DNA of 64,000 bases from Fodinicurvata sp. EGI_FJ10296. Its GTDB lineage: Bacteria > Pseudomonadota > Alphaproteobacteria > DSM-16000 > Inquilinaceae. The notes beneath the pieces are model-generated. The model was given only the letters and a program-made list of their open reading frames with translations, did not search any database and was not told the origin of the DNA. Location of the stretch: NCBI RefSeq assembly GCF_040712075.1, contig NZ_JBFCVL010000003.1, forward strand, positions 248,001 to 312,000, written 5' to 3'. Within the stretch, counting starts at the first letter, position 1; each line of letters opens with the position of its first letter. Positions 8,068 to 39,790 of the stretch are shown here, piece after piece. A program made the translations under genes and the position numbers.

Positions 8068-9348
8068 TCAGTATTGGGCGATGGTCGGCAGCCAGGTCGC
8101 CAGCGACGGAACCAGCATGACCAGAATCGTGAAGCCGATGATGACAAAGAAGAACGGCAGGTTGGCCTTGAATATCTTCATCTGATCGACATCGGCGATC
8201 CGGCTGGTGATGATCAGCGCCATCGCCAGTGGCGGCGTCAACTGGCCGATCACCACCGACAGCGTCATCAGGACGCCGAACTGGATCACATCGACATTAT
8301 ACATCATCATCGCAGGCAGGATGATCGGCACGAGAACCGGGATCAGCGGGTCCAGTATCATCCCGGCGATGATGGCGAGGCCGACCAGCACCAGCAGCAC
8401 CAGGAACATGTTGTCGCCGAAGTCCATCAGCGCGATGAAATTGCCGATGGCGGCGGGAACGCCAAGGATGGCGAGACTGGAGCCGAGCGCAAAAGACAGG
8501 CTGACGATCAGCATCAACTCGCCGGTAAGCTGAACGGCGTTGCCGAATATCCGGTACAGATCGCGCCATGACAGCGAGCGATAGACGAAACAGGATATGA
8601 TCAGCGCATAGGCGACCGCGAATGACGCGCCCTCGGTCGGCGTGAACACGCCGAAGACCAGACCGGCGACGATGATGATCGGCATGCCGAAGGCGAGCAC
8701 CGAACGCGCGCCGGTTTGCAGCACCTCGCGCCAGGCGAGATTGCCCGTCGGCTTCCATCCCCGCCGCCGGGCGATCACGGTGATCGCCCCCATCAGTGTC
8801 AGCCCGAGCAGGATGCCGGGGATCAGGCCGGCCAGAAACAGCGCGCCCAGAGACGTGCCGGTGACCGCGGAATAAAGGATCATCGGCGAGCTGGGCGGAA
8901 TCATCGGCCCGACCCCCGCCGACGAGGCGGTGACGGCGGCAGAGAACTCCGAGGAATAGCCTTCCCGCTTCATTGCCGGAATGACGATGCTGCCGGTGCC
9001 GGCCAGATCGGCGGTCGACGAGCCGACCATGCCGCCGAAGAACATGCTGGTGACGACATTGACATGGGCCAGACCGCCGCGTGTCCAGCCGACCAGGGCG
9101 CGCGCGAAATCGAACAACCGGCCCGAGATGCCGCCCGCGTTCATGATGCCCCCGGCCAGCAGGAACATCGGCAGTGCCAGCAGCATGAACAGGCTCATCC
9201 CGGAGACCATGGATTGCGGCAGCGTGAGCGCCCACGATCCGGACAGGATGATATTGAGGCTGACGATCCCCATGATCGCCACCAGCATCGGGACTCCGAG
9301 CAGCAGCAATGCGATCAGGGCACCGATCGTCAGGACGGCTGTCAACAT
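8068..9348 (-). CDS. dctM: TRAP transporter large permease DctM
   Basis: A 426-aa protein with about 12 hydrophobic segments, the DctM length. Family motifs include SLNIILSG near the N-terminus, SADLAGTGSIVIPAM, GVGPMIPPSSPMILY, and repeats of similar helical hairpins in the second half. It is the sodium-driven transport subunit working with DctQ (9394) and the binding protein DctP (10125). It is the last gene of a leftward unit that begins with the aminotransferase at 14943. The ligand is probably an organic acid, but cannot be named. Confidence 0.9.
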   Translation of the reverse strand: MLTAVLTIGALIALLLLGVPMLVAIMGIVSLNIILSGSWALTLPQSMVSGMSLFMLLALPMFLLAGGIMNAGGISGRLFDFARALVGWTRGGLAHVNVVTSMFFGGMVGSSTADLAGTGSIVIPAMKREGYSSEFSAAVTASSAGVGPMIPPSSPMILYSAVTGTSLGALFLAGLIPGILLGLTLMGAITVIARRRGWKPTGNLAWREVLQTGARSVLAFGMPIIIVAGLVFGVFTPTEGASFAVAYALIISCFVYRSLSWRDLYRIFGNAVQLTGELMLIVSLSFALGSSLAILGVPAAIGNFIALMDFGDNMFLVLLVLVGLAIIAGMILDPLIPVLVPIILPAMMMYNVDVIQFGVLMTLSVVIGQLTPPLAMALIITSRIADVDQMKIFKANLPFFFVIIGFTILVMLVPSLATWLPTIAQY

Positions 9349-35566: not shown

Positions 35567-36658
35567 ATGGCCGGACGATCGGAAACCGGGCAGCAAGGCC
35601 GCATCGCCGGTATCGACGTGGCCCGCGGCCTCGCGATCATCGGCATGCTGGCCGTCCATATCGGACCGACCCATCTGACCGATCCCGCCGGCCGGCTCTA
35701 TGCCCTGCTGACGCATGGCCGCGCGTCGATCCTGTTCGGACTGCTCGCCGGCGTCGGCGTGGCGCTGCTGGGCGCGAGCCGCAGTTCGACACCGGCGGCG
35801 GCCCGGCTTCGCCTCGTCTGGTTCGCCGTGGTACTGCTGCCGCTCGGGCTATGGCTCCAGGGGCTGAACATTTCGGTCCTGGTCATCCTTGCCAATTATG
35901 CGCTGCTGTTCCTGTTCGGCGCGCTGTGCATCGGGCTCTCCAATCGCGCAATCGCCGGTCTGGCGGTCGCGTTTGCGATCCTCGGACCGATCGGGTTCCT
36001 GACCGGCAAGATCGTCGACCCCGGCACTTTCAACCGCTTTCCGGTTTCGTGGGCGAACTCGCCGGCGGAAATTCTCCACGGCCTTGCCTTGTCCGGCCCC
36101 TATCCCTTCATCACCTGGGCGGCACCGTTTCTGACCGGCATGTGGCTGGGACGCCAGAACCTCAACGACAACGGCTTCAGGATGCGCATGGTCCTCGTCG
36201 GCGGCGCGACGATGGTCGCCGCCGTGGCGCTCGCCGCCCTGCTGAATACGATGCTTGACCCGCCCACCTATCTGCGCGGTCTGCATCGTCTGCTCGACGC
36301 TTCGCCGCACAGCCAGATGCCGCTCTGGCTGATCGGCGCCACCGGATCGGCCGTGTTCGCGCTCGGCCTTTCGCTGATCGCGGCCGACCGGCTGGGACGC
36401 GCCGTCTCGCCACTCGCGTTGGCCGGGCAACTGGCGTTGAGCATCTATGTCGGCCATCTTGTCGCGCTCCACTTTCTGGGCCGAACCATGAAGTCGTCGG
36501 ATGTCGGCGAGGCCATCGGCATTATCGCCCTGATCCTGGCGGTCTCGCTTGTCATCGGCGGCATCTGGCGGCACTTCTGGCCACGAGGGCCGCTGGAGAC
36601 GGTGTTGGCCCTGCCCTGGACGCTGTCGGCTTCCCTGTCTTCTGCCGGCAGGCGCTGA
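35567..36658 (+). CDS. acyltransferase-like integral membrane protein (DUF418/heparan N-acetyltransferase type)
   Basis: A 363-aa protein with about ten hydrophobic segments. The opening GIDVARGLAIIGMLAVHIGP is the signature of the DUF418/DUF1624 membrane acyltransferase group. FITWAAPFLTGMWLGR and the late LSIYVGHLVALHFLGR support this. ATG 35567 is preceded by GAGGGACGAGG. The frame is open upstream into the LacI gene, but the extra sequence is not membrane-like. The substrate is unknown; it may O-acylate envelope glycans. Confidence 0.7.
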   Translation: MAGRSETGQQGRIAGIDVARGLAIIGMLAVHIGPTHLTDPAGRLYALLTHGRASILFGLLAGVGVALLGASRSSTPAAARLRLVWFAVVLLPLGLWLQGLNISVLVILANYALLFLFGALCIGLSNRAIAGLAVAFAILGPIGFLTGKIVDPGTFNRFPVSWANSPAEILHGLALSGPYPFITWAAPFLTGMWLGRQNLNDNGFRMRMVLVGGATMVAAVALAALLNTMLDPPTYLRGLHRLLDASPHSQMPLWLIGATGSAVFALGLSLIAADRLGRAVSPLALAGQLALSIYVGHLVALHFLGRTMKSSDVGEAIGIIALILAVSLVIGGIWRHFWPRGPLETVLALPWTLSASLSSAGRR

Positions 36659-36667
36659 CAATTTCGC

Positions 36668-36706
36668 TTGACGCATCGATCATCACGGGCATAGATCATC
36701 TATGCC
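36668..36706 (+). promoter_or_regulatory. promoter with 19-bp palindromic operator for the padR unit
   Basis: A -35 TTGACG (36668-36673) is followed at 18 bp by a -10-like TAGATC embedded in the perfect palindrome GGCATAGAT-C-ATCTATGCC (36688-36706). An operator over the -10 suits autorepression by the PadR protein encoded next. It also argues that translation starts downstream (36789), not at the ATG inside the palindrome (36702). Confidence 0.6.
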
Positions 36707-36788
36707 TAGAACTTCAATGCATAACGGAGCGGCCCAACGGTCTGCCGTCGACTATACGGACCGACGGTACTGGAACGGCATCATCAAG

Positions 36789-37151
36789 ATGAGTCTTTCC
36801 AAGTTCTTCATCCTGCGCGTCCTGCACGACCGGCCGATGCACGGCTATGAAATCGCACGCGCCGTCGAAACGACCACGAACGGATGCTGTTCGCCGACCG
36901 AAGGCACCATCTACCCGGTTCTGCGCGAGTTCGAGACCGGCGGCTACGTGACCTCGGCGGAGGAAACCGTTTCGGGCCGGGGCCGCAAGGTCTACACGCT
37001 GACCGAAAAGGGCCGGGCGGCTTTCAAGGTTGGGGTGGAAGCCTGGATGGAGGTAACCGACTGTCTGGTCGAATCCGGCAGAACCGCGGACACGACCAGC
37101 CGCACCGAGTCCGGCGACGCTCCGGAGTCTCCAGCGGAACGCTGCTGCTGA
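36789..37151 (+). CDS. PadR-family regulator with paired cysteines
   Basis: A 120-aa PadR winged-helix repressor: LSKFFILRVLHDRPMHGYEI, SPTEGTIYPVLREFETGGYV and RGRKVYTLTEKGRAAF are family landmarks. A Cys33-Cys34 pair (NGCCSP) sits where many PadR proteins have Phe-Trp, and the protein ends in Cys-Cys (ERCC). Thiol pairs suggest a metal(loid) or redox signal rather than a phenolic acid. It leads a rightward set with a flavoprotein and an MFS pump and has a 19-bp palindrome in its promoter. Arsenic is a plausible inducer, but this is inferred. Confidence 0.78.
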   Translation: MSLSKFFILRVLHDRPMHGYEIARAVETTTNGCCSPTEGTIYPVLREFETGGYVTSAEETVSGRGRKVYTLTEKGRAAFKVGVEAWMEVTDCLVESGRTADTTSRTESGDAPESPAERCC

Positions 37152-37205
37152 TTTTTTTGGCTTCATACCTCGATCCTCTATGCAATGACCATAAAGGGGT
37201 GTGCC

Positions 37206-38585
37206 ATGAATGAAAACGATACCATTGCCGTCATCGGCGCCGGCCCTGTCGGCCTTGCCGCCGCTGCACATCTCGTGGGTCGCAGCCTGAAACCGATGAT
37301 ACTGGAACAGGCGGACCATGTCGGCGCCGCCATCGGCCAATGGGGCCATGTACGCGTCTTCTCGCCCTGGAAATACAATATCGACGAAGCCGCCACCGCC
37401 CTGCTTGACGAAATGCCATGGATGCGCCCCAATCCGGAAGACCTGCCGACCGGCACCGAAATCGTCCGCGACTATCTGGCCCCGCTGGCGGCTCACCCCG
37501 CCATCGCGCCGCATCTGATATTGGGGGCACGGGTGACGCAAGTAATGCGCGAAGGCCGGGCCGACCAGCCGCTCACGATTGCGTGGCGGGGCACCGACAA
37601 CGTGGAACACAGCCACAGGGTTCGCGCTGTCATCGATGCCTCCGGCACCTGGGGACAGCCAAACCCGATGGGCGTCAACGGCGGCGCCGTTCCCGGCGAA
37701 ACCCAACACAGCGACCGGATCGCCTATGGCATCCCTGACATACACGGAGCATCGCGCGCCGAATATGCCGGCCGCCGCGTGCTGGTGGTCGGCGGCGGCC
37801 ATTCGGCGGTCAATGTCGTGCTCGACCTTGTCCGCCTGCGGAAATCGACGCCGGAGACGGAAATCGTCTGGGCGCTCAGAAGCGAACGGGTCGATAAACG
37901 GCTCGGCGGCGGCTCGGCGGACCAGTTGCCGGCGCGCGGCGCCCTCGGCGACGCCGCAAGGCAGGCCGTCGACAGCGGCACGGTCACCGTCCTGGCGCCA
38001 TTCGCCGCTCAGCGAATCGCGGCCGACGCCGATAATCTGATCGTCGACGGCCGTCATGGGACACGGGCCATTTCGCTTGATGTCGACCGCGTGGTTGTCG
38101 CAACGGGATTCCGGCCCGATTTCTCGATGCTGGAGGGGCTGAGTATTGCCATCGACCCTGTCGTCGAAGCGCCACCGGCACTGGCGTCGCTGATCGATCC
38201 GGCATTGCATTCCTGCGGCACGGTCCCGCCGCACGGCGCGCGGGAACTGGCGCATCCCGAACCCGGATTCTACATCGTGGGTGCCAAGTCCTACGGCCGT
38301 GCGCCGACATTCCTGATGATGACCGGCTACGAACAGGTGCGGTCAGTCGTCGCCGAGATTGCCGGCGATCACGCAGCCGCCAACGACGTCCGGCTGATAT
38401 TGCCCGAAACGGGTGTGTGCAGCGCCGTGCCGCAAGCAGCGCCGCAAACCTCGATCACGGACCCACCACGATCGGCATCTGGATGTTGCGGTGGGCCAGA
38501 ACCGGTCAGCGTTGATGCCTGCTGCGTCAAGGACGCCGAGGCCAAGACCGGAGGCGCCACGGGCTGCGGGTGCTCGGTCGCATGA
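37206..38585 (+). CDS. FAD-dependent pyridine nucleotide oxidoreductase with Cys-rich tail
   Basis: A 459-aa flavoprotein monooxygenase/reductase-like protein. The FAD motif is GAGPVGLAAAAHL (N-terminus) and the NAD(P) motif VLVVGGGHSAVNVVLDL is central; VVVATGFRPD precedes the last third. The final about 40 residues carry six cysteines (GCCGGPEP, DACCVKD, GCGCSVA). Similar Cys tails occur, to my recollection, on flavoproteins in arsenic gene islands. ATG 37206 with AGGGG upstream is preferred to ATG 37185. It shares an operon with padR (54-bp gap) and overlaps the MFS gene by 4 bp. Substrate unproven. Confidence 0.75.
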   Translation: MNENDTIAVIGAGPVGLAAAAHLVGRSLKPMILEQADHVGAAIGQWGHVRVFSPWKYNIDEAATALLDEMPWMRPNPEDLPTGTEIVRDYLAPLAAHPAIAPHLILGARVTQVMREGRADQPLTIAWRGTDNVEHSHRVRAVIDASGTWGQPNPMGVNGGAVPGETQHSDRIAYGIPDIHGASRAEYAGRRVLVVGGGHSAVNVVLDLVRLRKSTPETEIVWALRSERVDKRLGGGSADQLPARGALGDAARQAVDSGTVTVLAPFAAQRIAADADNLIVDGRHGTRAISLDVDRVVVATGFRPDFSMLEGLSIAIDPVVEAPPALASLIDPALHSCGTVPPHGARELAHPEPGFYIVGAKSYGRAPTFLMMTGYEQVRSVVAEIAGDHAAANDVRLILPETGVCSAVPQAAPQTSITDPPRSASGCCGGPEPVSVDACCVKDAEAKTGGATGCGCSVA

Positions 38586-39790
38586 GGTCCGGATCCCGCA
38601 GAACCGGCGTCATTCTGGCACTAGGCGGCGCGCAGACATTGGCCTGGGGCTCGACATACTATCTGCCGGCGATCCTGGCGGTGCCGATGGGCGAAACCAT
38701 GGGCACCACGACAGGACCAATCTATGGCGCGTTTTCCGCCGCCCTCGTCCTGTCCGCGCTGCTGGGGCCGGCGGCCGGACGGCGGATCGACCGCTTCGGC
38801 GGCCGCGACGTGCTGGCGGTGTCCAGTCTGGTTTTTGCTGTCGGTCTCGCCACCCTCGGCGCGGCACAAAGCCTGTGGATGCTGTATGCCGGATGGCTGA
38901 TTCTGGGCATCGGCATGGCCATGGGGCTTTATGAAGCGGCCTTTGCCACGCTTGCCGGAATCTATGGCAGCTCGGCGCGCGGCGCCATCACGGGGATCAC
39001 GTTGCTGGCGGGGCTCGCCAGCACCATCTGCTGGCCGATCACAGCGCTGATGGAGGCGGAAATGGGCTGGCGCGCGGCCTGTTTCGCCTGGGCGACGGTG
39101 CATGTGGCGATCGGTCTTCCCGTCAACCGGTTCCTGATTCCGGCAATGCCGGTTCAGATGGAAGCGCCGGCAGACGCCCCGCCGGACCCACCGCGCAACA
39201 CCCCGAAAGCCAATGCCGGCCTCTGGGACCGGAACATGGTGCTGCTGGCTTTCGCCTTTACGACAACCTGGTTCATCAGCACGGCGATGGCTGCTCATCT
39301 GCCCCGCCTGCTGCAGGATTCCGGCGCAACGGCCGCCGGCGCGATCGCCATCGCGGCGCTGGTCGGCCCCGCTCAGGTCGCCGGACGGCTGCTGGAATTC
39401 GGCCTGCTGCAACGGTTCCACCCACTGCTTTCCGCGCGCCTCGCGGGCGCTGCCCATCCTTTGGGTGTCGCCGGCCTGGCGCTGTTCGGCGCGCCCGCGG
39501 CGATTTTTTTCGCCGTCGTCCACGGCGCCGGCAACGGCATCCTGACGATCGCAAAGGGGACCGTGCCGCTCGCGCTGTTCGGCCCATCCGGCTACGGCTT
39601 GCGCCAGGGCGTACTGTCAGTGCCGGCCCGTTTCGGGCAGGCAGCCGCGCCCTTCGTCTTCGCTCTGGCGATAGACCGCTATGGCGCGTCGGCCCTGTTG
39701 CTGTCGGCGACGCTGGGGCTGGCCGGCACGACCGCGCTTCTTTTCCTTCGAAGCCAGCCCTCGGGGTCCCAGGTTTCAACGGCAGACTGA
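38582..39790 (+). CDS. MFS transporter (probable efflux pump)
   Basis: A 402-aa, 12-helix major facilitator protein. GRRIDRFGGRDVL is the loop 2-3 motif of MFS carriers, and GIYGSSARGAITGITLLAGLAS lies in the middle of the N-half. A hydrophilic loop (about 195-215, Pro/Ala rich) separates the halves. The ATG overlaps the flavoprotein stop (ATGA, 38582-38585), so it is translationally coupled. In this setting it probably exports the product of the flavoprotein or the metalloid itself; inferred. Confidence 0.8.
   Translation: MRSGSRRTGVILALGGAQTLAWGSTYYLPAILAVPMGETMGTTTGPIYGAFSAALVLSALLGPAAGRRIDRFGGRDVLAVSSLVFAVGLATLGAAQSLWMLYAGWLILGIGMAMGLYEAAFATLAGIYGSSARGAITGITLLAGLASTICWPITALMEAEMGWRAACFAWATVHVAIGLPVNRFLIPAMPVQMEAPADAPPDPPRNTPKANAGLWDRNMVLLAFAFTTTWFISTAMAAHLPRLLQDSGATAAGAIAIAALVGPAQVAGRLLEFGLLQRFHPLLSARLAGAAHPLGVAGLALFGAPAAIFFAVVHGAGNGILTIAKGTVPLALFGPSGYGLRQGVLSVPARFGQAAAPFVFALAIDRYGASALLLSATLGLAGTTALLFLRSQPSGSQVSTAD

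Follow-up and report, generated by a model that had tools for sequence, protein, structure and literature searches.

The window analyzed here (64,000 nucleotides of Fodinicurvata sp. EGI_FJ10296, contig NZ_JBFCVL010000003.1, positions 248,001-312,000) carries three consecutive genes, encoding a PadR-type regulator, a flavoprotein, and an MFS transporter, which very probably work as an arsenical detoxification cassette under the control of PadR. Its substrates would be trivalent compounds, and organoarsenicals such as methylarsenite (MAs(III)) are the most likely of these. An initial annotation of this DNA had placed all three genes downstream of a 19-bp palindrome, which is correct, and had offered arsenicals as a first guess, which genomic context supports, both through 78 of 80 PadR relatives and through similar flavoproteins in ars islands. 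The cassette combines this gene order with conserved operators, conserved cysteines, and linkage to arsenic genes, and is laid out as follows:

36671..36691, weak partial operator-like site, possibly a spare half-site, which may be chance (matrix score 6.8)
36687..36707, operator copy A, containing the perfect palindrome 36688-36706 (family matrix score 6.8)
36702..36722, operator copy B, the top upstream family match (score 22.7), which encodes MPRTSMH
36702..37151, + strand, padR, 149-amino acid PadR-type regulator (Pfam, cysteine alignment, predicted model)
37132..37150, + strand, weak terminator-like hairpin with a T-run at the end of padR (2 overlapping forms; shuffle mean 0.6)
37165..37185, second predicted operator, between padR and the flavoprotein gene (score 20.0)
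37180..37200, weaker operator copy that overlaps the second operator, its center 15 bp downstream (score 11.2)
37206..38585, + strand, ArsV-like FAD/NAD(P)H oxidoreductase with a six-cysteine tail (Pfam, NCBIfam, tblastn, alignment)
38582..39790, + strand, MFS exporter of the ArsK/ArsW kind, whose start overlaps the flavoprotein gene in an ATGA (226.7 bits against the ArsK model, cut-off 400)

The best start of the MFS gene, ATG 38582, overlaps the flavoprotein stop codon (TGA, 38583-38585), and the translational coupling that had been proposed for this gene is therefore likely. Since D17, Y23, W24, G26, and I28-M30 are invariant in an alignment of 81 PadR rows (the window plus its 80 closest relatives), the regulator should start before D17, at ATG 36702 or ATG 36717; its longest frame starts inside the palindrome. 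The hairpin stands directly before the second operator and would give the enzyme–pump pair a separate transcript.

Whether arsenic genes lie near homologs of the regulator was the check that had been set beforehand, and arsenic-type genes do follow nearly all of them. Scanning a species-genome collection for PadR gave 202 pattern matches and 121 relatives, and we kept the best 80 of the 121. One of the six peptide patterns used held the cysteine pair described below, which means that selection was not on the pair alone, yet it favors close relatives. Neighboring genes were called by tblastn, with references taken from PadR loci and plasmids. An ars-type gene (ArsV-like, ArsH, ArsP, ArsM, ArsD, ArsA, or ArsK-like) lies downstream within 3.5 kb on the same strand in 78/80 relatives. 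When the window is included, the 81 loci divide into 31 with an ArsV-like gene, 24 with ArsH but no ArsV, 17 with ArsP, ArsM, ArsD, or ArsA, seven with only an ArsK-like MFS, and two with none; MFS being a broad family, the seven loci with no other partner count for less. Representatives from the scan exceed the cut-offs of curated models for ArsH (378.3 bits, cut-off 292.25), ArsA (896 bits, cut-off 650), and ArsD (95 bits, cut-off 90), as does an Ensifer ArsK (513 bits, cut-off 400), and three permeases match Pfam ArsP_1 (189 bits, cut-off 32.3). The loci come mostly from Pseudomonadota, and single ones are filed as Bacillota, Chloroflexota, Verrucomicrobiota, and Actinomycetota, the last perhaps misnamed: this locus, from Mycobacterium sp. 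KBS0706 (L019), resembles Inquilinus loci both in its PadR and in its neighbors.

As distant controls we took the 20 best distant PadR matches, with up to ~5 kb on each side and leaving out G004, which has stops. Among these stretches, 0/20 have an ars gene nearby, and none of the 20 control proteins has a cysteine pair of the C62-C63 type. The regulator of the window belongs to a discrete group: across 289 genomes of the host's class there are nine close copies in eight genomes (58-100% identity, at least 141 bits), below which matches drop to 55 bits and 35% identity. Six of the eight copies outside the window have an ArsV-like gene and/or an MFS gene downstream, and two do not. We define here an arsenic-linked PadR subfamily by C62-C63, the conserved operator, and a downstream ars-type gene, and the window has all three. 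On a quick tree of the PadR rows, which has few columns and is only indicative, partner class changes 11 times versus 41 in shuffles, and the PadRs found with ArsP, ArsM, or ArsDA fall together to one side of a branch with weak support.

The regulator is a member of the PadR family (PF03551, 78.8 bits, cut-off 27) by Pfam. It matches neither ArsR nor MarR models in Pfam and NCBIfam, which places it outside the ArsR/SmtB arsenic repressors and sets it apart from MarR_ars. The top Foldseek matches of its predicted model (mean predicted local distance difference test [pLDDT] of 86.8) are PadR proteins, including LmrR and Rv3488, which have the PadR fold in common with it and are distant in sequence. 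Its cysteines are C62-C63, a C148-C149 tail, and C121, the last of which had escaped the initial annotation. Both cysteine pairs named there are present in the window, but only one is a common feature: C62 and C63 are invariant in 81/81 rows, whereas C121 is a cysteine in 45/81 and the tail positions in 39 and 36, making C121 and the C-terminal pair lineage-dependent. Position 57 is a cysteine in 10/81 rows, every one of them of the ArsP/ArsM/ArsDA kind. The predicted model places C62-C63 in a loop ahead of helix 67-80, which we read as the recognition helix of the PadR fold, and C121 within a long C-terminal helix (102-137). That these cysteines are structural, with PadR a constitutive repressor or one with an aromatic ligand, would agree with the fold match to LmrR, a drug-binding regulator, but we consider this highly improbable since C62-C63 are present in all 81 proteins and in none of the 20 distant PadRs, and since the partner genes are consistently of arsenic type.

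Because this pair alone is universal and most partners handle organoarsenicals, we prefer MAs(III), or another ligand for two thiols, to As(III). Alternatively, the ligand of this cassette might be inorganic, As(III) and/or Sb(III); the C-terminal pair of PadR or C121 would then supply a third thiol to make up a three-sulfur site, and the MFS protein would export As(III)/Sb(III) as ArsK does. The cysteines of the window PadR would allow this, ArsK is the best curated model for the pump, and some PadR relatives lie beside acr3, arsC, or arsR genes and some ahead of ArsD-ArsA. We nevertheless judge an inorganic ligand unlikely, although it is the most serious of the alternatives. No third cysteine is universal, and seven rows (L033, L044, L045, L062, L067, L069, and L077) have only C62-C63 from the KMSLSKF motif onward. 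The partners are mostly ArsH, ArsV-like, ArsP, or ArsM, which are tied to organoarsenicals or methylation. In addition, the host has acr3 and arsC-arsH elsewhere in its 4.83-Mb genome, beside ArsR-like genes: in C1, ArsH (392.7 bits, above cut-off) lies behind genes read as arsR and arsC, and in C2, Acr3 (398.1 bits, above cut-off) lies beside an ArsR-like gene. No PadR operator was found ahead of either set, two matches in C1 (12.6 and 13.0) being kilobases off. The top ArsM-like match in the host is below cut-off (189.9 versus 263 bits), no second flavoprotein match was found in the genome, and its one further PadR match is distant (34%). A loose 17-base operator pattern, with up to two mismatches, occurs at 96 places per strand of the host genome versus three for a reversed-pattern control, which may be a poor control.

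The palindrome GGCATAGATCATCTATGCC at 36688-36706 is exact, as had been reported. By itself we rejected it as proof of an operator, since it is near chance level in 64 kb: the window holds two perfect palindromes of odd length with 9-bp arms, the other being GGCGATCACGGTGATCGCC at 8770-8788, versus 0.44 expected. Its weight comes from its place and from the conservation of related sites. The further claim that it lies over a promoter -10 is the weak point, the -10 being plausible rather than established: the sole promoter-like consensus match in 36500-37300 is CTGACA-17-GATCAT (36655-36683), and TTGACG at 36668 has only poor -10 hexamers as partners. A symmetric 21-bp matrix, seeded with palindromes and refined on 81 upstream regions (80 relatives plus the window), yielded the family consensus AYRCMTYGATSATCRAKGYRT. 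In all 81 upstream regions a site exceeds the 99th percentile of shuffled regions. When similar sites were left out, the matrix chose the same place in 80 of them. At a score of 10, an operator is present upstream of padR in 79/80 relatives. Between positions -90 and +140 relative to the padR stop, 67/80 have a copy, and all 67 belong to the 78 with an ars-type gene; shuffled loci gave three matches in 977,104 bases. These counts overstate independence, as the loci are related to one another and also served to train the matrix.

In the window, operator B overlaps copy A by six bases and covers the padR start codon. Similar spacing recurs in the family, the second operator having a neighbor 15 bp downstream (score of at least 5) in 25/80 relatives, and the first an upstream neighbor with its center 15 bp off (same score) in 14/81 loci. 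Such overlapping sites with centers 15 bp apart might, tentatively, accommodate two PadR dimers. Among the 20 distant control loci, two have operator-like matches at a score of at least 12, near the PadR gene (L147:5350-5461, scores of 19.2 and 16.2; L150:5056-5482, score of 12.4). Their PadRs (34 and 38% identity, without the cysteine pair) are perhaps cousins with a common DNA specificity and another ligand.

The enzyme has a Pyr_redox_3 domain (Pfam) and the six-cysteine tail described in the initial annotation (C427, C428, C439, C440, C454, and C456). Conservation of cysteines, on which its arsenical guess was made to depend, extends from C62-C63 of PadR to the flavoprotein, where C337 and C405 are invariant in 53/53 closed frames. 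Of the tail cysteines, the first pair persists in 52/53, the second in 41-42/53, and the cysteines of the CGC motif in 25-26/53. The predicted model has a mean pLDDT of 71.5, with the tail below 50. ArsV-like flavoproteins occur in 25 of the 289 genomes of the host's class (E 1e-60). Within 400 bp upstream of the 24 outside the window, on the same strand, there is a PadR in five cases, an ArsR-like protein in 14 (three of these matches scoring only 36-40 bits), and neither in five. With either PadR or ArsR ahead of the same flavoenzyme, PadR therefore stands in for ArsR.

A tblastn search of plasmids with the flavoprotein gave 175 records at E 1e-5, and nine annotated stretches were examined in all. 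Six (two from Ensifer and one each from Rhizobium, Nitrobacter, Hydrogenophaga, and Neotabrizicola) have the order ArsR, flavoprotein, MFS/ArsK, and all but that of Hydrogenophaga have ars genes nearby, among them an azurin-type arsenate reductase/AioA-like subunit, acr3, arsC, arsH, or arsJ. These cassettes resemble that of the window in having a flavoprotein (47-58% identical to the window's) followed by an MFS gene, but differ from it in their regulator, which is ArsR/SmtB instead of PadR. The MFS proteins of Nitrobacter, Hydrogenophaga, and Neotabrizicola are 52-58% identical to that of the window, whereas those of Ensifer and Rhizobium, annotated as ArsK, are only 30-32% identical. Of the other stretches, one from Cupriavidus, found with PadR, has PadR and then a permease, and for one from Bosea, found with the MFS, no regulator appears in the PLSDB gene table, which is incomplete.

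The pump itself, an MFS_1 protein (Pfam), is of a type that crosses partner classes. It is 58-66% identical to the MFS proteins of 19 of the 21 ArsH loci with a match (32 and 37% for the other two) and 57-61% identical to those of five of the seven MFS-only loci, but only 29-42% identical to those of the 24 other PadR-ArsV loci with a match. That this type might be confined to ArsH loci was rejected, since it occurs with ArsR and a flavoprotein on plasmids. Its presence with either oxidase fits a common product, presumably a pentavalent compound. The same regulator and operator before ArsV-like and ArsH oxidases also suggest that both enzymes fill one slot.

We envisage the following sequence of events. 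Judging from operator anatomy, a ligand-free PadR dimer on the two operator sets, at the padR start and before the flavoprotein gene, would keep the cassette off. C62-C63, at the head of the recognition helix, would be bridged by a trivalent arsenical and perhaps by Sb(III) or As(III) as well, upon which DNA would be released. Using NAD(P)H and O2, the ArsV-like flavoenzyme would oxidize the trivalent arsenical, which its cysteine tail may capture or pass on, and the cotranslated MFS protein may export the oxidation product, by analogy with ArsV/ArsW. In a review (PMC10080717), ArsV is described as a flavin monooxygenase that oxidizes methylarsenite and ArsW as extruding methylarsenate; the likeness of the window's pair, an enzyme and a putative product exporter, to them is one of described function.

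Several observations count against an arsenical-responsive cassette. 1) The 80 loci, related to one another and chosen for their closeness, do not amount to 80 independent events. 2) L049 and L067 have no recognized ars partner, L037 has no upstream operator at a score of 10, and the ArsM representative of the scan is below cut-off (153.6 versus 263 bits). 3) Among the eight further copies in the host's class, L173 and L174 (both from G252) have no ars partner, and L172, which carries all three of PadR, flavoprotein, and MFS, shows no operator match at a score of 12. 4) The perfect palindrome of the window is a poor match to the family matrix (6.8), the overlapping site scoring 22.7. 5) ArsO (NF040505) and ArsK (NF033733), the best NCBIfam matches of enzyme and pump, are far under their cut-offs (61.2 versus 425 bits and 226.7 versus 400 bits, respectively), so both names were rejected, and ArsV and ArsW are names given by analogy. 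6) A PadR-flavoprotein-MFS cassette on a Roseomonas plasmid adjoins chromate genes. Some of these points would suit a cassette that handles some other soft electrophile or an oxidant (reactive electrophiles, thiol oxidants, Hg, or other oxyanions), with the ars linkage reflecting shared islands: the two copies in one genome lack ars partners, that of L174 is followed by a glutathione-transferase-like gene, and the Roseomonas cassette has its chromate neighbors. Elsewhere, PadR proteins are associated with aromatic compounds, and one of Bacillus cereus SJ1 with chromate. We regard this explanation as improbable, since the operator at the padR end precedes the next gene in 67/80 relatives, every one of them with a downstream ars-type gene, and since partners vary from ArsV-like and ArsH to ArsP, ArsM, and ArsDA, with arsenic as the common theme.

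The two copies without ars partners have settings of their own, as read from translations. L174:4247-5381 has an arsenic-type PadR and two operators, then a glutathione-transferase-like gene whose product ends in CC, and then an aminotransferase-like gene; the glutathione-transferase-like gene is possibly a new target of the regulator. In L173:3047-5427, the arsenic-type PadR lies beside transposition genes of Tn7-like look.

Under the preferred reading, an arsenical-responsive cassette, the enzyme–pump pair is of a known kind and the PadR sensor family is the new element. ArsV and ArsW are attributed to Chen et al. 2021 and Zhang et al. 2022. MarR_ars regulates arsV without being an ArsR protein, and has an adjacent cysteine pair, a MarR fold, and a three-cysteine site; by comparison, the window PadR has another fold, and its cysteine pair alone is universal. 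Mentions of PadR in PMC12191737, PMC6016940, PMC12652892, PMC2936356, PMC7677001, PMC3899966, PMC12685809, and PMC4094778 are about chrA-padR structures, a predicted interaction network that connects an arsenic-related protein of Exiguobacterium to a PadR-like one, the chromate regulator ChrI, and a list of genes for aromatic catabolism, or are chance matches to words such as Padro or Padroes in references. ChrI is a PadR homolog induced by chromate. No PadR arsenic sensor was found in the open literature searched, partly in excerpt, which leaves subscription papers mostly outside, so one may be in print.

With somewhat more doubt than confidence, we propose that these regulators are a separate PadR-fold family of arsenic sensors, in which a bare vicinal Cys-Cys at the head of the recognition helix reads trivalent organoarsenicals rather than As(III). 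This family would replace ArsR across several phyla and, through a common operator, drive arsV-like, arsH, arsP, arsM, or arsDA genes. If so, PadR would join ArsR and MarR_ars as a family with an evolved arsenic switch, and the operator consensus would be a means to seek PadR target genes. A sensor with one pair as its only universal thiols would also be a natural candidate for a methylarsenite-selective biosensor.

Nine Photorhabdus/Xenorhabdus genomes, which are insect-associated, pair PadR with ArsM (L028, L029, L033, L036, L040, and L042-L045), and four of them also have ArsP. Finally, PadR-ArsP-ArsM loci in Stutzerimonas (L055:2189-5125) and in a Rhizobiaceae metagenome-assembled genome (L057:6001-8936) have nearly identical ArsP and ArsM (99%) and lie behind a gene read as a relaxase, which probably reflects recent mobile transfer.

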